From a virus: a DNA stretch of 37,977 nucleotides. Shown piece by piece: positions 21,673-34,060 of this stretch (position 1 is its first letter; each line of letters starts with the position of its first letter). A model generated the notes under the pieces. The model was not told the DNA's origin, made no database searches, and saw only the letters and a program-made list of their open reading frames with translations. The stretch lies in IMG/VR virus record IMGVR_UViG_3300033143_007503, positions 1 to 37,977 of that record; one strand, written 5' to 3'. The translations under genes and the position numbers were made by a program.

Positions 21673-22443
21673 TTACAACATCTTAAGGGTATGTTGGAGT
21701 TTTTGTTCAAACCATTGATGCATAGATGCGGCTTCTGGCTCTGGTTTCCATCGTTCTTCTAATTCTTCATCTTCTTCATATCTTTTTTCGAGTTCATCTA
21801 TATATTCTTCATCTCCCTCTCTAAATTCTAGATCAAACTCATCCATCATATCTATAGCCGCACCGTCTAAAGATTCATTACCGTACGTCCCATAATTTTC
21901 CCACCACGTCTTTATAGGTGTAACCTGATTAGGATCTACAGGACTTGTATAATTGGCAATATATGATGGTAATTCGCCCTTGAAAATATGAGCATAATTA
22001 TTATCTGAACCAAACAGTTCAAGATAATCACCATCATCTATGACCTCCATCATAGACCCGCCTATTTTTACCGGTGTGCCATCGACAGCAGCTTTTTGGA
22101 GTTTTATAAATAAATTGGGGTGCATTTGACCAGTAAAATAAGCATCCTCCTCTGACCCAAATCCTTCCAATCTGCCGAGAGATTTAGTTAATCCAGCAGC
22201 TTTGCTGACCTTTTTAAATTGTGATATTAATTCTGGGACACCACCCGTGCCATAATGCGTACCAGTCGCAACAGTATATTGGATAGGCATAGAACCAGAC
22301 GCTATTTTTTGAGCAACTTCTGATGTTACACCACTAGCAGTGAGGAATTTAACTAATGGAGATACTGATGCGGCAACACTTGCCGATTGTTTTAAAAAGT
22401 CTCGCCGTGAAATATCATTTTCAACAATTGATTGCAATTTCAT
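21673..22443 (-). CDS. protein with Tat-like motif and [I]xE leader
   Basis: A 256-aa protein of unknown function. ATG 22443 (MKLQSIVE) is chosen because GGAG lies 7 nt upstream; the longer frame from 22506 runs into the tRNA-like element. Residues 12-18 are SRRDFLK, a textbook twin-arginine export motif, followed by an Ala/Ser/Val stretch. The first eight residues also resemble the MKLxxIxE leaders of the putative internal proteins at 24106 and 25206. The two readings compete: Tat export, or a capsid-targeting leader cut after IVE. The C-terminal 60 residues are very acidic (EFREGDEEYIDELEKRYEED). Confidence 0.6.
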   Translation of the reverse strand: MKLQSIVENDISRRDFLKQSASVAASVSPLVKFLTASGVTSEVAQKIASGSMPIQYTVATGTHYGTGGVPELISQFKKVSKAAGLTKSLGRLEGFGSEEDAYFTGQMHPNLFIKLQKAAVDGTPVKIGGSMMEVIDDGDYLELFGSDNNYAHIFKGELPSYIANYTSPVDPNQVTPIKTWWENYGTYGNESLDGAAIDMMDEFDLEFREGDEEYIDELEKRYEEDEELEERWKPEPEAASMHQWFEQKLQHTLKML

Positions 22444-22479: not shown

Positions 22480-22616
22480 TGGTCCTGGCAGGAATCGAAC
22501 CTGCAATGCTGTTAATTCTCCGTGACTTACAGAATACTACCGCACGGATGGGATTATCTCGGCGGCTCTTAAACAGCGGAGAGCAACTCCCGCGTATACC
22601 ACTTCGCCACAGGACC
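22480..22616 (-). tRNA. aberrant 137-nt tRNA-like element
   Basis: Minus-strand ends pair as a perfect 7-bp acceptor (GGTCCTG/CAGGACC, then A). A Leu/Ser-type D-arm (GCG, loop AAGTGGTATA, CGC) and a canonical T-arm (GCAGG, TTCGATT, CCTGC) are present. Between them lie 87 nt instead of about 33. One reading: a cramped anticodon arm GGAG-TTGCT-CTCC (GCT would be Ser) followed by a giant variable arm. That arm would be closed by GCTGTT(T)AA/TTAACAGC and contain hairpin TCCGTG/CACGGA. No normal 7-nt anticodon loop can be drawn. It could be a damaged tRNA or a tRNA-mimicking RNA. Confidence 0.55.
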
Positions 22617-22678: not shown

Positions 22679-23059
22679 TTAATTGCAGCAACCACGAACC
22701 AAACCGCGACGAACCAAACCACGACGAGCCAAACCGCGAACCCTAACTCTAGGGAACAAAACGGGTCGTTCTCTGACAATGAGTGTTTCACGAGCACAAC
22801 AAGCACCCAAAGGACGAATCCTAAGTACTCTAGTTCTTGTCAAAATGGCACAATCACCCTTTTGGACACAATCGCCCTTTTGGACACAATCGCCCTTTTG
22901 GACACAATCGCCCTTCTGGACACAATCGGCCTTCTGGACACAATCGGCCTTCTGGACAGCACACCCGCTCTTTTGAACAGGACAACACTCACCAGCGACA
23001 CTCAGACACGGCAGAAGCAATAACATTGTAACTGCCAACGCAAAAACCAATCCCTTCAT
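22679..23059 (-). CDS. secreted Cys-rich hexapeptide-repeat protein
   Basis: A 126-aa protein with a clear Sec signal peptide: MKG, then hydrophobic LVFALAVTMLLLLPCLSVA, with probable cleavage before GECC. The mature part holds six to seven tandem hexapeptides of the form C-V-Q-K-G/A-D (about residues 31-70), encoded by an 18-bp DNA repeat. A basic tail with VRGLARRGLVRRGLVRG ends in CCN. CC pairs at both ends and one Cys per repeat suggest a disulphide-rich or metal-binding surface protein. AGGAG lies upstream. Opposite-strand ORFs here are shadows of the repeat. The role is unknown. Confidence 0.65.
   Translation of the reverse strand: MKGLVFALAVTMLLLLPCLSVAGECCPVQKSGCAVQKADCVQKADCVQKGDCVQKGDCVQKGDCVQKGDCAILTRTRVLRIRPLGACCARETLIVRERPVLFPRVRVRGLARRGLVRRGLVRGCCN
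22847..22971. repeat. 18-bp tandem repeat within the Cys-repeat gene
   Basis: About seven head-to-tail copies of GGACACAATCGCCCTTTT and variants (C for T, G for C), starting near 22847, 22864, 22882, 22900, 22918, 22936 and 22954. It is in frame with the coding sequence (six residues per unit), so it is a coding minisatellite and not a CRISPR. Copy number may vary by slippage. Confidence 0.85.
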
Positions 23060-24105: not shown

Positions 24106-25209
24106 ATGAAATTATATCAAATCCATGAAAGTCCATATGATGATCTAGATGATACCGATCAATTCGGTGTCCCGATAGAACTCGCTGCACTAACAAAATT
24201 CAAAAACTGGCTAAATAGTAATTATTTACAAAAATCTTGGGAAGCAGGAATAAAATTTTCATCAAACGATTTTGATGGTATTATACCTGCAGTGTCAACA
24301 CAATTAGAAAGAATCTTAATAGAAATATTCGGTTATGAAATATGCGATGAAGCATATTGGTCCATTAATACAGACGGATTAAACCACGAAGATCTAAATG
24401 CGATTAATGCTGCAATAAATCAACACCAAGAACTAAAAGATTGGTGGGAAGATCTAGCAATAAAACCAGAAAGACTACAACCATCATATGGAAAACTAAA
24501 CGAATCTAGTCCTTACGATGAATTAGATGATCAAGACCATTTCAAAAACACCAACGAATATTCAATAGCTGGTCGATTCACAATAGAACCACATAATTTC
24601 ACAGTTTGGGAAACATATGATCGTGTGGGACGAATAATAAATAGAGATATTGCGATAGATCAATGGGATGACTTATATGATATCCCAAAACCACTCAGAC
24701 TAAAATTGTGTAAAAAATTCACAAAATTATTACCACAGCAGCTCCAACAACGAATAAAACAACCACCAGCCACCTTAGCATGGCTAAGCGCAGCGATGAT
24801 GCTTTACTGGGACCAAATGTTGGATAATGGACAACTAAAAGAATCTAGTCCCTATGAAAAATTAGATGATGCTGATCACTTTGAAGAAACTGTTCCACAT
24901 AGCTATGAAATAATTGGTCAATTTATGATGCCACATGATGACGGGGACAACCCACCCCATGAATTTATGATCTGGGAATGGTATGAAAATGATACACCAC
25001 ACGAAGAAGTATCGATAGACCATTGGGACATAGGCCACCAAAATATTAATAATATACCAGATAAGACCAGAACCGAATTAAGCTCTTTATTTTTAAAAGA
25101 ATTTCGCCGCAAATCAAAAGACCTATTGCTCAGAATAGAGCACATTCCATTCGCTTCCAAAGAGTGGCTTAAACAAGCAATAATCCTATATAACGATTAT
25201 GTAATATGA
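24106..25209 (+). CDS. three-module ESSPYD polyprotein (putative internal protein)
   Basis: A 367-aa protein of no known family, built from three modules of about 110-125 residues. Each begins SPY(D/E)xLDDxDxF: residues 9, 134 and 247. Each start directly follows an (I/L)xE tripeptide: MKLYQIHE, KLNE, QLKE. In T4, capsid-internal proteins start with a short leader (MKTYQEFIAE type) and the prohead protease cuts after (L/I)xE. Modules 2 and 3 share an aligned body (FTVWETYDRVG with FMIWEWYENDT, then ISIDxWD-type lines), showing duplication. Its ATG has no clear Shine-Dalgarno, 22 nt after the epimerase. Packaging in the capsid is inferred. Confidence 0.7.
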   Translation: MKLYQIHESPYDDLDDTDQFGVPIELAALTKFKNWLNSNYLQKSWEAGIKFSSNDFDGIIPAVSTQLERILIEIFGYEICDEAYWSINTDGLNHEDLNAINAAINQHQELKDWWEDLAIKPERLQPSYGKLNESSPYDELDDQDHFKNTNEYSIAGRFTIEPHNFTVWETYDRVGRIINRDIAIDQWDDLYDIPKPLRLKLCKKFTKLLPQQLQQRIKQPPATLAWLSAAMMLYWDQMLDNGQLKESSPYEKLDDADHFEETVPHSYEIIGQFMMPHDDGDNPPHEFMIWEWYENDTPHEEVSIDHWDIGHQNINNIPDKTRTELSSLFLKEFRRKSKDLLLRIEHIPFASKEWLKQAIILYNDYVI

Positions 25210-25754
25210 AACTCAAACAAATTACTGAAGAAGCACGGCCAAGCGAAACAATTCGCCATACAGCAGAATCACTTGGCGATATGTTCGACTTCATATACAA
25301 ATTAGACCCAAAAAATAAAGAACGACAAGCAGTAAACCAATTTCTAGAAGATCCCACATCACAAACATGGGAAAGAGCAAAATGGGTCGTTAATAGCCTC
25401 ATCAGACAAGTTGTCACAAACCCAGAACTTAAAGCAAGAGCCGAAAAATGGGCATCAATCAATAACGTAACATCACCAATCGTCGCATCATCAATCTATG
25501 ATATAGACCCAAAATATACAAAAGGCACACCAATAGACAATATATCAATGAGCCGAAATAAAAGGGATGATATGAAGAAAACCCTTGGCCCAGCAGGATA
25601 CGTAAGTTCGCTGGCAGGAATTGGCGGAGAAGTAGAAAATCACGATATTAAGAAATATCTAAAGAAAACCGCCAGAGATGGGGAGGGACTAACCACAGCC
25701 GCAGAGAAAGATATGCCAGATATCGTCAGAAAAAAACAAATCAGGCATTTTTAG
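25206..25754 (+). CDS. putative internal/head protein with cleavable leader
   Basis: A 182-aa protein overlapping the previous stop as ATGA, so it is translationally coupled. Its start MKLKQITE is again a short basic/hydrophobic leader ending in IxE, like its neighbour and like T4 internal-protein leaders. The body is helical and basic (LKARAEKWASINNV, KKYLKKTARDG, ending VRKKQIRHF), as expected of a DNA-packing or injected protein. No family is recognised. An alternative is an ordinary cytoplasmic protein. Confidence 0.6.
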   Translation: MKLKQITEEARPSETIRHTAESLGDMFDFIYKLDPKNKERQAVNQFLEDPTSQTWERAKWVVNSLIRQVVTNPELKARAEKWASINNVTSPIVASSIYDIDPKYTKGTPIDNISMSRNKRDDMKKTLGPAGYVSSLAGIGGEVENHDIKKYLKKTARDGEGLTTAAEKDMPDIVRKKQIRHF

Positions 25755-25766
25755 TTTAAGAAAATT

Positions 25767-25813
25767 GTGGAGCTGCAGACTGGCCCTTTCCCGAGATTCA
25801 ATCCACAACTCCA
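25767..25813. terminator. weak inverted repeat between convergent genes
   Basis: TGTGGAG near 25767 can pair with CTCCACA near 25807 over a 33-nt loop, and TTGTGGA can alternatively pair with TCCACAA. It lies between the convergent ends at 25754 and 25824. Any terminator function is weakly supported. Confidence 0.3.
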
Positions 25814-25823
25814 CACAGATCGA

Positions 25824-26372
25824 TCATTCCTTTGGTAGTAAAACTACTTCACCATCAATCAATCGCTTCAAATACGCAACAGATATGATCTGCACCCCAT
25901 ATTTCTCAGCTTTCAATGTCTTATTGGATGAAGAAGTCGCATCCTTCTGAACTAAAATATCTAATTTCTTTGAAATCCCACTCTTGATGATACCACCCAA
26001 TTCCTCAGTTTCAGTTAAATGGGTACGTGTACCAGTGAAACAAAAGGATATCCCATCAAATAGCTTTTTCTTGCTTTCTTCCGCATTTTCATCAGCAGAA
26101 GGCTCCGAATCCGGATAATCAATCGTAACGCCCACGGAAGCCAGTTTCTGGATCAAGGGGATACAATCATCGATACCATTAATAACCGCAGTCCTGATTG
26201 AATCACCAAAACCGACAATGTCGATCGAATGCAGTTTTTTGAAATCAAGCCAATCACTCAACTTATCCAATTCGCCGCCAGCATTTTCTCGCAAAATCTG
26301 GACTCGACGACGCCCAAGGAGATATCTTAATAGCTCTCGATTCGCCGATCCGCCCACCACCATCAAGTTCAA
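25824..26372 (-). pseudogene. ligA: C-terminal part of NAD-dependent DNA ligase (BRCT), out of frame
   Basis: This frame carries the end of LigA: YLLGRRRVQILRENAGGELD (helix-hairpin-helix region), LSDWLDFKKLHS, IDIVGFGDSIRTAVINGI, then a BRCT domain (LFDGISFCFTGTRTHLTETE; LKAEKYGVQIISVAYLKRLI). It is in the +1 frame relative to the upstream ligase reading frame and overlaps its last 110 nt. The only in-frame starts are TTG/GTG-type or an internal ATG without a good ribosome site. It may be a frameshifted remnant, an independently started fragment, or expressed by +1 frameshifting. Confidence 0.7.
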
Positions 26373-27846
26373 TATCTTTCAATTGATCGACAGTAAGCGT
26401 GTACAAATCAGCAGCATCTTCAATCAATTTGTGATCCCATATAGCTTTAAGAATCGTATCGCCAATTTCCATAATCCCAGTGCCCTTTTTGGATGTCCCA
26501 ATCCAATGATTGATTTTACCAAGCATCGCAGCAGGACAAGCATGTGGTTGAGAACAATAGGTAACTGCACCATTCTTACCACGATAATTACGTGATGTTG
26601 GTTCACCACATACTGGACAACGTTTCGGCTCGTCAATCGACACACGATTTTTGTCTTTTGTAACAACACGAATAACTTTTGGGATAATGTCACCAGCCAA
26701 AATAACTTCAACTTCATCACCAATAGCAACATCAAGTCGCTCAATTTCATCCCAATTATTCAAAAGAGCATGTGTTACATTAACGCCACCAATCCTAACT
26801 TCTCTTAGAACACCAGTCGGGACCACAGAACCAGTGTGACCAACACTAAACAGTACACTCTCAAGTCTAGTAATACCAGACTTATGAGGAAATTTTATTG
26901 CTTTCGCATATTTGGGGAGAAGCCGTGTTCTGATGTCTTTAGTAACAAAATGGTCTTGTTGTTCTATCGAATTTAAACAAACAACAAGACCATCGATTTC
27001 ATATTTCAAGAGATCACGAGCTTGCAAAGTGGTATCATAAAAATCCTCTAAATCCTTAATACTTTTGCAAATGATGTGAGGAACCACCGAAAAGCCTAAG
27101 GTCGTAAGATCATTAAACTTTTCTTCTTCGGTGTTATTATCAACACCAGCACCAGCACTATTGAAGGCGATAAAACGCATTTTATCAGCGTCTTTACCAC
27201 TATCACGACTAAAAACGCCGTTTCCAATGTTCCGAGGATTACTTTGTTCTGATTCTGGGATTTCATTAAAAGGCATCCCGGAATCACGAGACTGGACATT
27301 TTTGAAGTCCTCGATTTGCATAATTGCTTCACCGCGAACATTAATCGTTACGGGAAATGGCAAAACCGATGGTAGATCGCGGAACAGAGCACCGTTTACT
27401 GTGATGTTTTCGCCGACTTCACCATTACCACGTGTAACAACTTCAATCAGCTTACCCTCAACATATCTCGCCCGGATGGAACCGCCATCAATTTTCAAGG
27501 ATGCCATGACCACAACCGACTCAACACCCAATTTATCGCATGTTTTATCGTACCAAGAGCTATATCCCGCGATACCATCGTCTGTGTTATCAAGAGATCC
27601 CATTGGGATTGTATGAGGGGTTTTGCTGCGAAGTTCTGATACATCATATGGGCAGCCGACACGGGTCACACGAATATCGTGTGGGTCTAACTTTTTCAAT
27701 TCTGGGCGAAGTAGATCATATTCAGCATCGGTCATGATCTGAGCACAACCGGGACGGTAATAAGCAAGATCAGCTCTATCAATCAACTTCTGAAGTTCAA
27801 AAAGCCTTTTGGTGAAATAATCTGTCGCTGCATCAAGTTTCGCCAT
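26263..27846 (-). CDS. ligA: NAD-dependent DNA ligase, N-terminal and catalytic part
   Basis: Seals nicks in DNA using NAD. The Ia domain is seen as DLAYYRPG and YDLLRPEL (residues 27-50). The adenylated Lys is in LKIDGG (K118). RGNGEVGENIT, EIDGLVV and the later AIKFPHK are further nucleotidyl-transfer motifs. An OB-fold follows, then a four-Cys zinc finger (CPVCGE...YCSQPHACP, about 425-450) and the first helix-hairpin-helix part (DIELDGGGRIGESRA). After that the frame ends in an unrelated tail (KISPWASSSPDFARK), because the remaining HhH and BRCT lie in another frame. About 20 expected residues between the two also seem missing. AAGGAC precedes ATG. Confidence 0.92.
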   Translation of the reverse strand: MAKLDAATDYFTKRLFELQKLIDRADLAYYRPGCAQIMTDAEYDLLRPELKKLDPHDIRVTRVGCPYDVSELRSKTPHTIPMGSLDNTDDGIAGYSSWYDKTCDKLGVESVVVMASLKIDGGSIRARYVEGKLIEVVTRGNGEVGENITVNGALFRDLPSVLPFPVTINVRGEAIMQIEDFKNVQSRDSGMPFNEIPESEQSNPRNIGNGVFSRDSGKDADKMRFIAFNSAGAGVDNNTEEEKFNDLTTLGFSVVPHIICKSIKDLEDFYDTTLQARDLLKYEIDGLVVCLNSIEQQDHFVTKDIRTRLLPKYAKAIKFPHKSGITRLESVLFSVGHTGSVVPTGVLREVRIGGVNVTHALLNNWDEIERLDVAIGDEVEVILAGDIIPKVIRVVTKDKNRVSIDEPKRCPVCGEPTSRNYRGKNGAVTYCSQPHACPAAMLGKINHWIGTSKKGTGIMEIGDTILKAIWDHKLIEDAADLYTLTVDQLKDIELDGGGRIGESRAIKISPWASSSPDFARKCWRRIG

Positions 27847-27929
27847 CGTTTTGTCCTTGGAATAATGTTACTTTTGTCAAATACGTCTGATATTATATTG
27901 TTGCAGTCCGTTTTAATAGGTTAATACAG

Positions 27930-27960
27930 TAATGCCCCAATAGTGAATATTGGGGCATTA
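27930..27960. terminator. 13-bp perfect hairpin
   Basis: TAATGCCCCAATA pairs perfectly with TATTGGGGCATTA over a GTGAA loop. It separates the ligase gene from the tRNA-like RNA region. No U-run follows, so it may be a processing or stability element, or a terminator working with the hairpin at 27970-27985. Confidence 0.6.
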
Positions 27961-27966
27961 CTTATT

Positions 27967-27985
27967 AAAAAGACAAAATTGTCTT
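27967..27985 (-). terminator. terminator-like hairpin with U-run
   Basis: On the minus strand AAGACA-ATTT-TGTCTT is followed directly by a T-run. It likely ends the minus-strand RNA that carries the tRNA-like elements at 28.1-28.3 kb. Confidence 0.5.
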
Positions 27986-28107
27986 AAATTCTAAACGCTC
28001 CGACCCATTACCCTATGGGCCGGAGCTGGGTATTCATACTATTGAATGTATGAGCGTAGCTCCACACCTAACTAGTTCCGTTTAATTTCTCAACTCAGTC
28101 ATTAAGC
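27986..28107 (-). ncRNA. structured RNA downstream of tRNA-like halves
   Basis: No ORF covers this stretch. On the minus strand it forms strong stems: CTCCGGCCCAT with ATGGGTCGGAG (11 pairs, one G-U, loop AGGGTA), and an alternative GGAGCT/AGCTCC enclosing the hairpin CATAC/GTATG with an ATTCAATA loop. The two share GCTCC bases and may be mutually exclusive. It lies between the 5' half of tRNA-like element B and a terminator hairpin, so it is probably part of the same transcript. No known RNA family is recognised. Confidence 0.4.
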
Positions 28108-28190
28108 CAGTATGTCTTACCATTAGACGATCTCCCCTAATTACTCTAACTCAAGAGGGGGGAGACGGACTCGAACCGTCATGTACTTAG
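28108..28190 (-). tRNA. rearranged tRNA-like element B (3' half upstream of 5' half)
   Basis: Along the minus strand a T-arm comes first (GACGG, TTCGAGT, CCGTC; 28164-28180), then TCCCCCC (28157-28163), an 18-nt spacer, then GGGGAGA (28131-28137) and a canonical D-arm (TC, GTCT, AATGGTA, AGAC). TCCCCCC and GGGGAGA pair with one A-C mismatch. The two tRNA halves are therefore in inverted order, as in circularly permuted tRNA genes. An anticodon arm is not clear: TACT after the D-arm can pair with AGTA before the T-arm, only 4 bp. Confidence 0.45.
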
Positions 28191-28263
28191 CATTGGTTGA
28201 GAAAACTCGATTTAGGTGATGACCACATTTATGAGCCTAGGGTGATAGTCTGAAATTCATTTA

Positions 28264-28342
28264 TGCTTTGCCTCTGCCAATTGGGCTACCCCCGCAGAGA
28301 AAACAAGTACGGGGGGCAGGAATCGAACCTGCATATTTAGCA
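28264..28342 (-). tRNA. rearranged tRNA-like element A (candidate permuted tRNA)
   Basis: The minus strand reads T-arm GCAGG-TTCGATT-CCTGC (28316-28332), CCCCCGT then A (28308-28315), a 12-nt spacer, GCGGGGG (28289-28295), TA, and a canonical D-arm (GCC, CAATTGGCAGA, GGC). GCGGGGG and CCCCCGT pair over 7 bp, with G1-U72 exactly as in the three normal Leu tRNAs of this phage. The trailer ACTTG also resembles theirs. The 3' half precedes the 5' half. The anticodon stem is weak (AGCA with TGCT), and U33 is missing. An alternative pairing joins the 5' half to the T-arm of element B. Confidence 0.5.
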
Positions 28343-28394
28343 ATTTTGTGAATCTAAACCTAAACCTAAGACTTTAACGACACATTAGTGTCGA

Positions 28395-29126
28395 TTACCC
28401 TCCAAACAAATACTTGAAAATGGATTTCGCTACTGTTTGCTTTTTCGCTACTGTACCATTAGCACATTCACGAGCACTCTTCACAGCATCCAGCAGCTTA
28501 TCTACACGAACGATGATCTCATTTTTCTCGGCTTGCGGGATCGCACCGCTAAAAGCAACAGTTTCCCACGTACCGATGATCACATCCTCAGAATAGGTCT
28601 CGACTTGTGCAGGATGTTCTTTCGTCGCTTCATATTTGATGTGGTTCTTAAGAACCTTTTTTGTCTTTGTCGTTTCATGAGGATCCGTAGCATAAGCATT
28701 AGCTTCCTCACTCCATGTCCATGTTTCAGCCGGATCGAGAATAGGCAACTTCGCAACTTGTGTGCGGATATCCTTCAATTCCTTATCTAGGAAAAGCAGA
28801 TATGTAACAGGGATCTTTTCGATGATCACATCGCCATCAACAACCACACTAGCTGTTGCTTCGCAATTTGCAACATCTAATGTAGCCACCATATCAAACA
28901 AGCTAGTCAAAGCTTCCTGTGTGTCAGCTAAACCAGTTTTCACCGTATACTGCACACGTTTTCGTTCTGGTGGGAACACATCGCCATCATCATCCTTAGG
29001 ACGATATGTACGACTGATTCCCGTAAGCAAAGCTTCTTTCTGCAACTTTTGATAAGCCGTAGTCTGTCGCCTTTTCGATCGTTCTTTCAATCCATTTGTC
29101 AAAGCAATAACTTGATTCAGTAGCAT
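28395..29126 (-). CDS. DUF7873-like conserved protein
   Basis: A 243-aa protein matching a family of unknown function known from actinobacteria and phages. The hallmark stretches are MLLNQVIALTNGLKERS, GISRTYRPKDDDGD, LPPExxRVQ-type (here FPPERKRVQYTVK), and VVVDGDVIIEKIPVTYLLFL followed by DLxTxVxKLPxLDPAE. ATG 29126 is chosen because GGAG lies 8 nt upstream; the longer frame from 29180 begins with an unlikely hydrophobic tail. Family members have no established function. The gene is followed by the tRNA-like RNA region. Confidence 0.75.
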   Translation of the reverse strand: MLLNQVIALTNGLKERSKRRQTTAYQKLQKEALLTGISRTYRPKDDDGDVFPPERKRVQYTVKTGLADTQEALTSLFDMVATLDVANCEATASVVVDGDVIIEKIPVTYLLFLDKELKDIRTQVAKLPILDPAETWTWSEEANAYATDPHETTKTKKVLKNHIKYEATKEHPAQVETYSEDVIIGTWETVAFSGAIPQAEKNEIIVRVDKLLDAVKSARECANGTVAKKQTVAKSIFKYLFGG

Positions 29127-29188
29127 CTCTTTTTCTCCGGTTTTAACAATAATTATCAGTCTTATAATATTAAAATACACTCACAACA

Positions 29189-30247
29189 TCATTGAATATT
29201 ATTCCCGATGTTAAGATCTTTCATAAAACCCTTCCCACCAGCCGTCAAATCCTTAACACCAATACCCATAATTTTTTCGAAATTATCCATAAGACAATAA
29301 TTCCCATAAATAATTCCAGCAGGTTCATCTTGGTAAAAATCAAGAGCTTCTGGGTCAGGATATGATAATTCCTGAGCAATTTCAGCACCGGCTGCGATTT
29401 CTACCTTTGCTACTTCTACATTCATCGCTTGCCGTGAACGCATCTTTGGTACAGAATCCATACCACAGGTTTTCGTCTCACCAGATATAGAATTCCGGGG
29501 AGCACCATCTTGTGAGAGCCATTGTTGCTTACCTACCTGATAATCTGGCGACACAGAATCCGCAAAAGACATATCGGCTGACATACTCGACATACCCATA
29601 CCTGATATACCCATACTCGACATAGCACGTAATGGCGAAGAAGAAGCGGGTTTCTCTTTCTTTGACAAATAAAAAGCAATACCAATCGCCCAAACTCGAT
29701 CTTCACCGATCATCTGGGCAGCAATTCCCTTTGTCACTTCTTCAGTTATCAAGAAACCGCGAACATTTTTACCAGATCGAAACCCATCAATCCAAAATAG
29801 ACCACGTGGGCAACTAGTTGTGGTCATATAATTCTGAGCTGGCCATTTGTCATCACATTTTTCACAAAAACGATCTTGCTTAAAATCAATATCATGTTTT
29901 GGACATTTATCATGATACTGTTCCAACCGCAGGATCTTCGACGGAAGACCAGTGATGGGATTAATGCCTTGAATACTCAACACAATAGCAATATGGTGAG
30001 TATGATTAATATTCATATTAAAATCCAACCACATATGCTTCCCAACTTCAATTGGGAAGAAATATGACGATGCTTTGCTGCTCCCATTCATCCAATCAGT
30101 GGGACAACCTGGAAATTCATCAACTTTATAAGTGTTAATAGGATGCCCTGGGGGTAGCCGATGCGTCCCACCACCTTTCGGGGCATTTGGCAAATTAACT
30201 ATACATGAAAGACCGTTGACTATCATCGTTTGATTAGCTGTAACCAT
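29189..30247 (-). CDS. conserved large-phage protein with zinc-type Cys cluster
   Basis: A 352-aa protein of a type I recall from large phages without assigned function. Conserved-looking phrases are GTHRLPPGHPINTY, GKHMWLDFNMNINHTHHIAI and a CPKHD...FCEKCDDKWPAQN zinc-binding motif (about residues 115-140), then ITEEVTKGIAAQMIGEDRVW and AIGIAFYLSKK. A Met/Ser-rich low-complexity linker (about 208-235) precedes a C-terminal acidic domain. AGGAG lies 7 nt before ATG. A structural or replication role cannot be decided. Confidence 0.65.
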   Translation of the reverse strand: MVTANQTMIVNGLSCIVNLPNAPKGGGTHRLPPGHPINTYKVDEFPGCPTDWMNGSSKASSYFFPIEVGKHMWLDFNMNINHTHHIAIVLSIQGINPITGLPSKILRLEQYHDKCPKHDIDFKQDRFCEKCDDKWPAQNYMTTTSCPRGLFWIDGFRSGKNVRGFLITEEVTKGIAAQMIGEDRVWAIGIAFYLSKKEKPASSSPLRAMSSMGISGMGMSSMSADMSFADSVSPDYQVGKQQWLSQDGAPRNSISGETKTCGMDSVPKMRSRQAMNVEVAKVEIAAGAEIAQELSYPDPEALDFYQDEPAGIIYGNYCLMDNFEKIMGIGVKDLTAGGKGFMKDLNIGNNIQ

Positions 30248-30261
30248 TTCGATCTCCTGTG

Positions 30262-30286
30262 AAAAAGCGGGGCCATATGACCCCGC
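30262..30286 (-). terminator. Rho-independent terminator
   Basis: On the minus strand the near-perfect palindrome GCGGGGTCATATGGCCCCGC is followed by TTTTT. It lies 14 nt after the stop of the gene at 30301 and before the start at 30247. Confidence 0.85.
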
Positions 30287-30300
30287 CTAGAATAAAAGAA

Positions 30301-31170
30301 TCACGTGCTAACATGCTTACCAATATTAAAAGGATTATTATCCTTTCTGCGCCCATCTTTAGGTACACGCAATTTTGGTTCTTCACCAATCAATTTCAAT
30401 TCTTGGAGCAAAACAGCGGCACGACTATATCTTGCCTGAGCTTTGCTCACTGCATTTTGTTCTAATATATCCAATACGCGGTGAGCATCTTCAACATCAT
30501 TTGTTTTCAATTCACCAGTATTGGTAATAGCAAGATACACAATCTGACGAGCTTCAAATGGAATCTTAGCCACACTACGATTGGTATTAGTGCACACACC
30601 ATCACGAAGCATTTGGCCAGGATAAAGAAAATTCTCTTCAGGAGCATCTATCATAGGGCGATCACCAATTTTATAAACACGGCATGGTTGTCCATTGAAA
30701 TTGATAATATCCTGATCAGGTAGACCATCCTTAATATCACGGAGAATTCGCACACTTTCACTAATGAGGACTGTCCGTTGATCTTTAGGATCAAATACAA
30801 CACAGCGTAAACCATTAGATTCTATTAATAAACGATCGCGAACTGCTGGATGGGTTTCACCAGTTGGATCATATCTTTTAAACAATTCAACAAAAGAGAG
30901 TGCCGCAACACGATTTGCAGTAAGCGGTTTTTCTTTTTTGGATTTTTTCACTTCATCGCGAAATATTTCCTCACAGGAAACTTCAGCTAACATTCTGGGT
31001 ACGCCGATTCCTGTAATATGTTCATATTTTGCTTTGCGAAGACCACGATCGGTGGTGCCACCGATTTTCTTGAGAGCAATAATTATTGCTTCAATATCAA
31101 GTTGATCTTCTTTGGAGCACTCACCGTTGTGGAATTCATCGATTTTACGGGCATACGAAGATTGAGACAT
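30301..31170 (-). CDS. hypothetical phage protein
   Basis: Unrecognised 289-aa, charged, mostly soluble protein. The N-terminal third is helical (residues 1-95). A middle alpha/beta part carries LRCVVFDPKDQRTVLISESV and INFNGQPCRVYKIGDRPMID. The C-terminal helices (RVLDILEQNAVSKAQARYSR) are followed by a basic tail. It has its own terminator, and an unusual leader upstream (start-stop codon pair and hairpin at 31203-31259). AAGGA precedes the ATG. No function can be assigned. Confidence 0.6.
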   Translation of the reverse strand: MSQSSYARKIDEFHNGECSKEDQLDIEAIIIALKKIGGTTDRGLRKAKYEHITGIGVPRMLAEVSCEEIFRDEVKKSKKEKPLTANRVAALSFVELFKRYDPTGETHPAVRDRLLIESNGLRCVVFDPKDQRTVLISESVRILRDIKDGLPDQDIINFNGQPCRVYKIGDRPMIDAPEENFLYPGQMLRDGVCTNTNRSVAKIPFEARQIVYLAITNTGELKTNDVEDAHRVLDILEQNAVSKAQARYSRAAVLLQELKLIGEEPKLRVPKDGRRKDNNPFNIGKHVST

Positions 31171-31202
31171 TTCTTTTCCTTCTTGCTTACTATTTTCTTA
31201 CT

Positions 31203-31259
31203 AAAAACGAGCGTGGCCCCAACTAGGGGCATATTTGCATCACATGACACACCTCCTTT
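31203..31259 (-). promoter_or_regulatory. leader with perfect SD, start-stop pair and hairpin
   Basis: The minus strand has AAAGGAGGTG (31250-31259), a perfect Shine-Dalgarno, then GTC and ATGTGA (start followed at once by stop, 31240-31245). A second tiny frame ATG-CAA-ATA-TGC-CCC-TAG overlaps the hairpin GCCCC-TAGTT-GGGGC (31216-31230). A T-run follows 8 nt later (31203-31207). A terminator controlled by ribosome occupancy ahead of the 30301-31170 gene is possible. Confidence 0.4.
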
Positions 31260-31336
31260 GGTCTATTTATTAAGAGGATCAGCGAAATGGCAACATTTTA
31301 AATACATTTTCAAATTATTTTCGCGTGACAATATAT

Positions 31337-32551
31337 TCAAGAAGCAGGTGAAATCTCTATTTCAACATCATGCCCTTCAAAGGTTTTACCTTGCCCAATA
31401 TTAAGACCATTCACTTCCATATATCCCACAAGCCGATTATAAAATGCACCATTTTCGTTTCGTTGACCTATTTCAAAATTACCAATACTATACCCAGCAT
31501 CTAATAATACTTCACCAGCATTAGCAATGAGATCATCACAACTCATGTTTGGTTTAACTGCGGATATTAACATCCAAATAAAATCATAATCATCATTAAC
31601 AAATTCATCAGCATCATCTAATTCATCATAAGGACTTGATTCTCGTAATGGTGGAACTCTATATTGGGAAACTGCTTCTTTCATACCAGGTAATCTATCC
31701 AACACTTCATCAGGAATTTCATCAATTTGTTGTTGACCAGCTTTCGTATCAACTAGCATTTCTGTATAATCACCATCGCTAGGATCAAAATATCCAGCAT
31801 TTAAATCTTCATCACATGCCATATCGTCAGAAATATAAAGCAAACTATTGCCAGTACCATCTGGCCAATCTACATCTAAAATGGCATTATTATCATCAAT
31901 ACGATAAATCTTAGTCACACGATAAAACGCTTGATTTTGACCTTCATCGCTAAATTCATCAGTATCGTCTAATTTATCATAAGGACTTGATTCATGAAAA
32001 AGGCCAGTTGATCCATAATGCGATGGATGGATCTCGTCAATATACGCATGAATAAGATCTTCCCATGTCCAACCGCCTAATTCTGGAAACGCTACTGGGT
32101 CACTAATTTTACCGATTTTTTGTGTGGTGCCGCGTGATTGTTCTTCAACAATACCATCTCTTATCCAAAAAGTAAGGAGTCCTATAGTATCATGATTACG
32201 TGTTATGCAGTACATACTACCGTATCGTCTAAATTGTAAAACATTATTTAAAAAATCATCAACAACATCATCATAAAATTCATCAGTATCATCTAATTTA
32301 TCGTAAGGACTTGATTCAGTAATATCATATTCTTTTAAACAAGCGTCGCAATAATCAACACCATTAATTTCTTGTATACAATCAGAACAAACGTATCTTC
32401 GGCATTGTTCACATTTAATATTATATGCTTCGTATTCTACTCCATCAGAAGTAACCGGTGAATGACAGATAGGACAAACAAATTCATCTTCAAATTCATC
32501 AACATCGTCTAAATAGTCATAAGGACTAGATTCATAAAGATTGAATAACAT
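31337..32551 (-). CDS. four-module ESSPYD polyprotein (putative internal protein)
   Basis: A 404-aa protein with four modules, each starting SSPYDxLDDxDEF at residues 8, 80, 188 and 305. They follow NLYE, DITE, LFHE and PLRE, so three of four have (L/I)xE directly before the Ser. Module 1 (72 aa) is a zinc-binding domain with four CxxC pairs (CPICHSPV, CEQCRRYVCSDC, CDAC). The other modules are about 100-117 aa, acidic and unrelated in body sequence. This suggests a shuffled set of cargo domains joined by a shared start peptide and released by a prohead-type protease. The start is coupled to the upstream stop as TAATG. Confidence 0.7.
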   Translation of the reverse strand: MLFNLYESSPYDYLDDVDEFEDEFVCPICHSPVTSDGVEYEAYNIKCEQCRRYVCSDCIQEINGVDYCDACLKEYDITESSPYDKLDDTDEFYDDVVDDFLNNVLQFRRYGSMYCITRNHDTIGLLTFWIRDGIVEEQSRGTTQKIGKISDPVAFPELGGWTWEDLIHAYIDEIHPSHYGSTGLFHESSPYDKLDDTDEFSDEGQNQAFYRVTKIYRIDDNNAILDVDWPDGTGNSLLYISDDMACDEDLNAGYFDPSDGDYTEMLVDTKAGQQQIDEIPDEVLDRLPGMKEAVSQYRVPPLRESSPYDELDDADEFVNDDYDFIWMLISAVKPNMSCDDLIANAGEVLLDAGYSIGNFEIGQRNENGAFYNRLVGYMEVNGLNIGQGKTFEGHDVEIEISPAS

Positions 32552-33915
32552 TAAAATTGCCCGTAGTCAAGACCCCAATCCTCTTCGCTATCAGGATTAT
32601 CTGGGTCATCGTAGCCACCTTGCTCATCGTCATAATCATCAGCATCAAAATCATCAACATCGTCATCCAATTGTTGCATCAATTGCATTAATGCTTCTTT
32701 AGGACCGATGGGATCTTCGCCGCTTTTTAATGATTCAATAGTATCGGAGAGAAGTTTATGAATATATTCTGGAGATTGTGCTGCGAGTGCTGATACAATA
32801 TCAACTAATTTGTGGTCTTTTGGGACAATTTGCAAAAAGGATCTCCAAAGTTGTGGGCCAACTTGAATCAACCATGGCTCATCTTCTAAAGCATCTGCTT
32901 CTTGATATATTGATGCTAATTGTGTTTTGCTTAATCCTTCTAAACCATGCATGGATAATACTTCCATGACTCCTTTAATTGTTTCTTGAATCAAAACTGG
33001 GAAATTAATAGCACGAGCAATTACTCTTACTTGTGGTTTTGATGGTTCATATTCTTCATCTGCTTCTGGATTATATTCTTGTTCTTCTGGATTATATTCT
33101 TGTTCTTCTTGTCCTTCTATATCATATTCTTGTTCTTCTTCTGGGTCTTGGTCTTCGCCAAAATCAACTTTTGATGTACCAACTGAAGCATTCTTGAGCA
33201 TGTCTCTCGACATATTAGCAAAATCCATAATCCAATATATATGGGTTGATCCTGATGCCAATTGGCTATACATTTGTATTAATCGTGGATCGATTTGATT
33301 AATCTGATCTACCGCAGCATGATGGATAGTACCCATATTATGAACAGAAGCACCTTGCGTTAAGGCATTCATGGTGATTCTTTTATTCACTTGTTCTCTG
33401 TCGATAGGTACCTGCTGCATTTCTGGTTCTTCTGGTTCTTCTGGTTCTTCCTCTGGTTCATCTAATTCTTGGGCAATTCCTCGCATCTCTCTAGGATCAA
33501 CTAATTTGACATCAAGTATATCTTCTGGAACACCCCATATACTGCTTACCAATTGAACAACAAGATGTTCTAATTCTTCACGATGTGGTTTCTCAGCTGC
33601 ACCAATTTGTTGAAAAACTCGACCAGCTAATTGTGGGAGCATCTGCATAATTTGTCGCGGCTGAGCATTTTGAAGTTGTGGAAATGCTTTTTGGATTGAC
33701 TTAAGAGTATGATCGTAAGATTGCTGGGCAGATTCATCCCCGTACATTGCTAATAAAGGATGTGCAGAAAATGGGTGATTAGATTGGCGAATATTACGCC
33801 AAAAATCTATTGTATTAGGATTAGTACCTCGCTCATACTCCTCAAAAATAAGACCAAAATTATTTGGATCTTCAGTAAGAAGCAATGCAATTTGATTGGG
33901 GGATATAATGCTCAT
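32551..33915 (-). CDS. large acidic phage protein, unknown
   Basis: Unrecognised 454-aa protein. It has a helical N-terminal domain (residues 1-150). An acidic Glu/Pro linker with repeated EEPEEPEEPE follows, then a helical middle (160-250). A second acidic region has EEQEYNPE-type repeats (about 260-300), and a helical domain (305-420) ends in an Asp-rich tail. Long acidic, repeat-rich, helical proteins next to head genes can be scaffolds or portal-associated factors, but this is only a possibility. Its end is coupled to the ESSPYD polyprotein start. AGGTT lies before ATG. Confidence 0.6.
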   Translation of the reverse strand: MSIISPNQIALLLTEDPNNFGLIFEEYERGTNPNTIDFWRNIRQSNHPFSAHPLLAMYGDESAQQSYDHTLKSIQKAFPQLQNAQPRQIMQMLPQLAGRVFQQIGAAEKPHREELEHLVVQLVSSIWGVPEDILDVKLVDPREMRGIAQELDEPEEEPEEPEEPEMQQVPIDREQVNKRITMNALTQGASVHNMGTIHHAAVDQINQIDPRLIQMYSQLASGSTHIYWIMDFANMSRDMLKNASVGTSKVDFGEDQDPEEEQEYDIEGQEEQEYNPEEQEYNPEADEEYEPSKPQVRVIARAINFPVLIQETIKGVMEVLSMHGLEGLSKTQLASIYQEADALEDEPWLIQVGPQLWRSFLQIVPKDHKLVDIVSALAAQSPEYIHKLLSDTIESLKSGEDPIGPKEALMQLMQQLDDDVDDFDADDYDDEQGGYDDPDNPDSEEDWGLDYGQF

Positions 33916-33944
33916 AACCTATATTTGCGGTAAGAGCAAAAATG

Positions 33945-34060
33945 TGGCCGATGACTAGGATTTGCACCCGTGACCTCCGTCAATTAAGACGTTACTCTGG
34001 ACTACCTCTGTAGAGTAATACTCTACAGTTGGCTCCTCAAAGAGGCTGAGCTACATCGGA
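33945..34060 (-). tRNA. tRNA-like element with inserted hairpins
   Basis: Minus-strand ends give CCGATG/CATCGG, TA, then GCTC of a D-arm. The 3' side has a var loop and T-arm start (AGGTC, ACGGG, TGCAAAT), but the T-stem 3' strand is degenerate (CCTAG for expected CCCGT). Inside, CGTC-TTAATT-GACG could be a shrunken anticodon arm. An extra segment of about 38 nt with hairpins CCTC/GAGG and CTGTAGAG/CTCTACAG interrupts the D-loop. Total length is 116 nt. It is probably a decayed or remodelled tRNA. Confidence 0.45.

Follow-up and report, generated by a model that had tools for sequence, protein, structure and literature searches.

Acidic tags behind hydrophobic-x-Glu sites mark candidate cargo precursors in a giant T4-like phage

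The stretch of viral DNA analysed here, hereafter the window, is 37,977 nucleotides long (IMG/VR record IMGVR_UViG_3300033143_007503) and carries two genes, A and B, in which one short acidic peptide recurs along the chain, each time directly behind a triplet ending in glutamate. What are such proteins for, and are they meant to stay in one piece? In phage T4 the prohead protease gp21 recognises (L/I)xE and cuts behind it, and the ten N-terminal residues of the internal protein IPIII suffice for packaging (PMC9026906). A sequence-only reading of the window had proposed that A and B are polyproteins of the same logic, that is, precursors of cargo proteins carrying a shared start tag and released in the capsid. 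We examined the tags, the leaders, the relatives and the head genes on which this proposal depends.

Tagged genes and their modules

Both genes are open reading frames and hold the seven tags claimed for them, three in A and four in B, each recognised as a copy of the motif.

24106-25209, plus strand: gene A, 367 amino acids, leader MKLYQIHE and three tagged modules
24106-24129, plus strand: leader of A, MKLYQIHE, predicted cut after Glu8, fitting the lineage leader MKLxxIxE
24130-24165, plus strand: tag A1, SPYDDLDDTDQF, behind IHE
24505-24543, plus strand: tag A2, SSPYDELDDQDHF, behind LNE
24844-24882, plus strand: tag A3, SSPYEKLDDADHF, behind LKE
31337-32551, minus strand: gene B, 404 amino acids, leader MLFNLYE and four tagged modules
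32492-32530, minus strand: tag B1, SSPYDYLDDVDEF, behind LYE
32276-32314, minus strand: tag B2, SSPYDKLDDTDEF, behind ITE
31952-31990, minus strand: tag B3, SSPYDKLDDTDEF, behind FHE
31601-31639, minus strand: tag B4, SSPYDELDDADEF, behind LRE

Across the seven copies the consensus is (E)SSPY(D/E)xLDDxDxF. The spelling ESSPYDxLDDxDxF given earlier thus holds as a general form, but A1 reads ESPYD with a single Ser and A3 has PYE instead of PYD. The tag Glu occupies residues 8, 133 and 246 of A and residues 7, 79, 187 and 304 of B, and the triplets that end in it are those originally listed, six of the (I/L)xE type and one FHE. A six-frame search of the window found no further copy. In both proteins the first tag adjoins the leader Glu directly, so that the tag forms the predicted mature N-terminus, and the same junction is then repeated within the chain.

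Isoleucine or leucine stands two residues before the tag Glu in six of seven copies, the seventh having Phe, as against 64 of 410 glutamates (15.6%) in the other genes of the window (P=8.8e-5). Silent differences predominate among the codons of the tag copies (pN/pS 0.21, with DNA identity among copies of 71-95%), which indicates that the peptide is under selection, beyond what mere recent copying would leave. Three features of the two genes count against a role as cargo precursors: (I/L)xE is also present inside the bodies of A and B, with no depletion, the FHE of B3 falls outside the strict (I/L)xE rule, and the leader of B lacks MKL.

That different bodies stand behind one tag is borne out by a comparison of the modules, which have little in common beyond the tag, A2 and A3 excepted, these two being homologous along their length. 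The bodies had also been called shuffled; they do differ, but with A2 and A3 being duplicates of each other and no detectable relatives for the rest, the shuffling itself is something that we infer. A zinc domain had been suggested for one body, and B1 indeed contains eight Cys in a zinc-finger-like pattern, although its matches to IBR, RING and B-box domains are weak. Protein A has no Pfam or PHROG match, the bodies of both proteins remained unassigned after searches of Pfam and PHROGs and a tblastn comparison with annotated phages, and neither A nor B contains a peptidase family according to Pfam and PHROGs. All modules are acidic (pI 4.1-5.3). Structure prediction of A and B with AlphaFold gave models too poor to use (mean pLDDT 31-33).

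Distribution of the tag

The pattern PY(D/E)xLDDx(D/E)xF was scanned over 2.9 million IMG/VR contigs and returned four stretches: a near-identical strain, contig G002, which has two true copies, and a further pair of stretches that appear accidental. In the aligned part of A, the near-identical strain (L001/L002) differs from the window by one substitution and two in-frame deletions of 111 and 6 bases, which fall in the module bodies and leave the tags untouched. In G002 (L004/L030), the tag stands in two genes arranged in tandem, with the readings ...TISE-ANPYDKLDDTEEF and ...TIFE-ANPYDKLDDTEEF. A looser pattern scan yielded no additional true copy. Matches in L003, L005 and L290 and 22 stretches in bacterial genomes were judged to be due to chance, while L291 and L292 gave no matching peptide on script follow-up.

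Multi-tag proteins resembling A and B were found in none of eight relatives, which have other repeats or paralogues instead, such as WPEAEP repeats in a family of record G059 and ITHTTD repeats in a G010/G070 protein. This counts against the cargo-precursor model, and the plan therefore seems restricted to this phage type. In record G059 (L251, L252, L255), at least six paralogues additionally start with a longer leader, MKLCQILT(R/K)TLTE, and carry variable numbers of a repeat some 30 residues long (RWPEAEPIIMKDP).

A leader common to the lineage

Both A (MKLYQIHE) and B (MLFNLYE) begin with a short N-terminal leader ending in (L/I)xE, and the T4-like leader claimed for them turns out to extend far beyond these two genes, MKLxxIxE running through the whole lineage. 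Statistics were drawn from eight related records together with the window and G002. Genes of the relatives are plain ORF calls, some of them made on pieces that overlap in part, and clusters were defined by BLAST at 1e-3. Among 101 called proteins starting with MK(L/I), (I/L)xE ends at residue 8 in 25 and at any other position in 0 to 10, whereas the other 2857 starts show no peak, with 34 at residue 8 (Fisher 1e-22; several of the P values given here take related proteins as independent). Over all loci, MKLxx(I/L)xE heads 61 distinct proteins that fall into 49 unrelated clusters once the leader is removed, and their alignment has M1, K2 and E8 as invariant columns. The bodies behind it include matches to ADP-ribosyltransferase, NUDIX, GNAT and 2'-5' RNA ligase domains. 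Serine follows the leader Glu in 16 of the 49 clusters against 7.3% behind internal (I/L)xE (P=2e-7), as it does in the tags, and Ser is likewise favoured after the cut made by gp245 of phage SPN3US (PMC10052503). Inside leader proteins generally, (I/L)xES shows no enrichment, which counts against cutting within the chain as proposed for A and B.

A second recurrent start, roughly IAxxI(T/S)(E/D)DPD(V/I)(F/L)xE, was recognised by pattern alone, without statistics, on many different giant-phage proteins (e.g., L274, L279, L280, L284, L054) and may be a second head-targeting leader. On one of these proteins it ends in FHE, the exceptional triplet of B.

The window itself holds three MKLxx(I/L)xE proteins, A, C and E, and both tagged genes overlap a neighbour.

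25206-25754, plus strand: gene C, start MKLKQITE, a single leader protein without tag, overlapping the end of A by 4 bases
32551-33915, minus strand: gene D, 454 amino acids, acidic, with a degenerate second-type start, QIALLLTEDPNNF, overlapping the start of B by 1 base
21673-22443, minus strand: gene E, an open reading frame with the leader match MKLQSIVE followed by twin-arginine-like SRRDFLK

Homologues of C occur in L117, L158, L164 and L235, with the leader kept in those listed, and in L063 and L104 homologues of D lie near leader proteins and the capsid gene. Gene E has a homologue at L236:16445-17299 (minus strand), and a similar start is found at L133:10056-10757 (plus strand). The twin-arginine-like motifs seen behind MKLxxIxE leaders read SRRDFLK, TRRNFLK and TRRDALK; a cut after the leader of such proteins would bare a Tat-type signal, as if for export after injection.

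Prohead protease and capsid protein

The gp21-like protease that the proposed cutting calls for is present in the lineage and in the tag-carrying G002 (Peptidase_S77 at L030:4748-5533, E=4.6e-21), but the 38-kb window fragment has no S77 match. Peptidase_S77 was detected in nine of ten records tested, G002 among them, and the positions of T4 His85 and Ser140 are conserved in these proteases. Most of those compared have IxES or LxES near the C-terminus, where T4 gp21 has ITESQ, and (I/L)xE occupies the T4 gp23 cut column in all relatives' capsid proteins displayed. Gene order in G002 is as in T4: portal, a large acidic protein, Peptidase_S77, a scaffold-like gene and the gp23-like capsid protein (phrog_138). 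At L029:1706-2797 (plus strand), an intein-like insert that carries an HNH-type endonuclease apparently interrupts the portal gene.

The window fragment is devoid of head genes, which counts against the model. Its tail sheath and the capsid protein of G002 (phrog_138) nevertheless point to one group of records of giant T4-like type; one example, 408 kb long and the source of L037 and L136, has both a tail sheath and a capsid protein, whose best segments are 88% and 71% identical, respectively. By tetranucleotide use, the G002 head contig ranks second to L113 among contigs not overlapping the window. These joint relatives and the tetranucleotide use suggest one kind of phage as the source of both the window and G002.

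Other features of the window

On the minus strand, positions 22480-22616 gave an Rfam tRNA match (38.3 bits, 137 bases) with a large insertion between the anticodon and T arms, for which ARAGORN made no report. Another tRNA-like stretch, seen by eye between two genes at about 33940-34060 on the same strand (CCGATGTAGCTCAGC...ATCGGCCACA), has no Rfam tRNA match. A small Cys-rich protein with VQK(A/G)DC repeats is encoded at 22679-23059 (minus strand) and at L001:4610-4954 (minus strand), and its repeat number differs between these near-identical strains (126 versus 114 amino acids). A DNA-ligase-like gene is, by eye, apparently split into two overlapping frames on the minus strand (25824-26372 and 26263-27846), which seems to be a frameshift or an assembly error. 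Scans for promoters and terminators gave numbers no different from those in shuffled sequence.

Discussion

The tags and the sites before them, the mostly unrelated bodies, the leader that recurs throughout the lineage, and the protease and capsid cut site of the relatives can all be read from the genes themselves. Taken together, the tags, sites, leader, protease and capsid cut make A and B most likely prohead-targeted cargo precursors; the reading in which a giant T4-like myophage makes them as precursors of its internal head proteins, with cuts at leader and junctions, has in our estimate a probability of roughly 0.6. That the proteins are packaged, cut, set free as separate pieces and injected into the host is what we infer beyond this, and so is any role of the tag. 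The leader, MKLYQIHE in A and MLFNLYE in B, would bring the precursor into the prohead core, where a gp21-type protease would then cut after hydrophobic-x-Glu, once to take off the leader and again ahead of every internal tag. The predicted products are three small proteins from A and four from B, each starting with (S)SPYDxLDD and keeping its acidic tag, for which docking, solubility and keeping the cut site exposed are candidate roles. The full scheme, a cargo polyprotein in which a single head-targeting leader serves several unrelated modules that the prohead protease separates at tag-marked junctions, appears to us, as judged from sequence, to have slightly better than even odds.

Proteins A and B could also be packaged and lose their leader while the internal tags stay uncut, the tags being repeated docking motifs for a scaffold, capsid or host partner on a chain that remains whole, like beads on a string. 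The conserved SPYDxLDDxDxF lies mainly downstream of the putative cut and exceeds what a protease site needs, and internal tagged sites are absent in the other relatives examined, which speaks for this reading. Yet docking explains neither the hydrophobic residue at -2 and the free position at -1, exactly as in the leaders, nor the constant contact between first tag and leader Glu, and we regard it as unlikely, if a serious competitor. It is also conceivable that LxE-SSPYD leader proteins were joined head to tail by duplication and fusion, leaving the tags as relics that now act as recombination seams, with no internal processing. The homology of A2 and A3, the 71-95% identity of the tag DNA and the within-module deletions that distinguish strain L001 all agree with such a history, but the pN/pS of 0.21 among copies indicates a constrained peptide and Glu is retained at every internal junction, which makes this account rather improbable.

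That A and B are intracellular phage proteins absent from the virion, their (I/L)xE matches being coincidental, seems to us very improbable. According to Pfam and PHROGs neither has a homologue of known function, and (I/L)xE is common, 15.6% of the glutamates in other window genes standing at the end of such a triplet; against coincidence stand the triplet at the tags (P=9e-5), the start of A, which matches the lineage leader exactly, and the junctions of A to C and of B to D, the relatives of C and D having leader-type starts or lying near the capsid gene.

Cutting of A and B into cargo proteins would resemble several known systems and differ from each. The T4 internal proteins IPI-IPIII and Alt, which have a capsid targeting sequence and are cut by gp21, likewise start with a short leader that ends in (I/L)xE while having little else in common, and the lineage of A and B shares with T4 an S77 prohead protease and a gp23-like capsid protein (PMC9026906). 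The T4 internal proteins, however, are basic single cargoes with one leader, whereas A and B consist of three or four acidic modules, with several predicted cuts and a common tag that would remain after cutting; this acidity counts against the cargo-precursor model, and comparison with phage records, Pfam and PHROGs gave no significant match of A or B to IPI-IPIII or Alt. Head and ejection proteins of SPN3US and phiKZ also undergo several prohead-protease cuts per precursor at a short Glu-ending motif, and in SPN3US Ser is preferred after the cut, but those cuts, at AxE, fall within a propeptide and leave one mature chain, while in A and B each piece is predicted to be a mature product of cutting at (I/L)xE (PMC10052503). 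The nearest multi-domain injected proteins are the polyvalent proteins of phages and plasmids, which combine disparate domains in one chain, are predicted to be injected and have been suggested to undergo proteolytic processing (PMC5512222). Polyvalent proteins are large, with recognised domains and often, though not universally, a built-in peptidase (PMC5512222), whereas the modules of A and B are small, have no recognised effector or peptidase domain, and meet at junctions marked for a separate protease. Leader and protease follow the logic of the T4 internal proteins. For the variant proposed here, one precursor holding several tagged cargo modules, we found no earlier description; no cargo polyprotein cut by a prohead protease was found in the literature covered, which leaves out most subscription papers.

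Polyprotein strategies are familiar from RNA viruses. If the interpretation of A and B as cargo precursors is true, a phage would use such a strategy to load several small head proteins on one targeting signal, which could then act as a shared entry ticket to the virus particle for several different proteins. The leader and the tag would also provide a sequence handle for listing those proteins, mostly of no known function, that giant T4-like phages are likely to package and inject.
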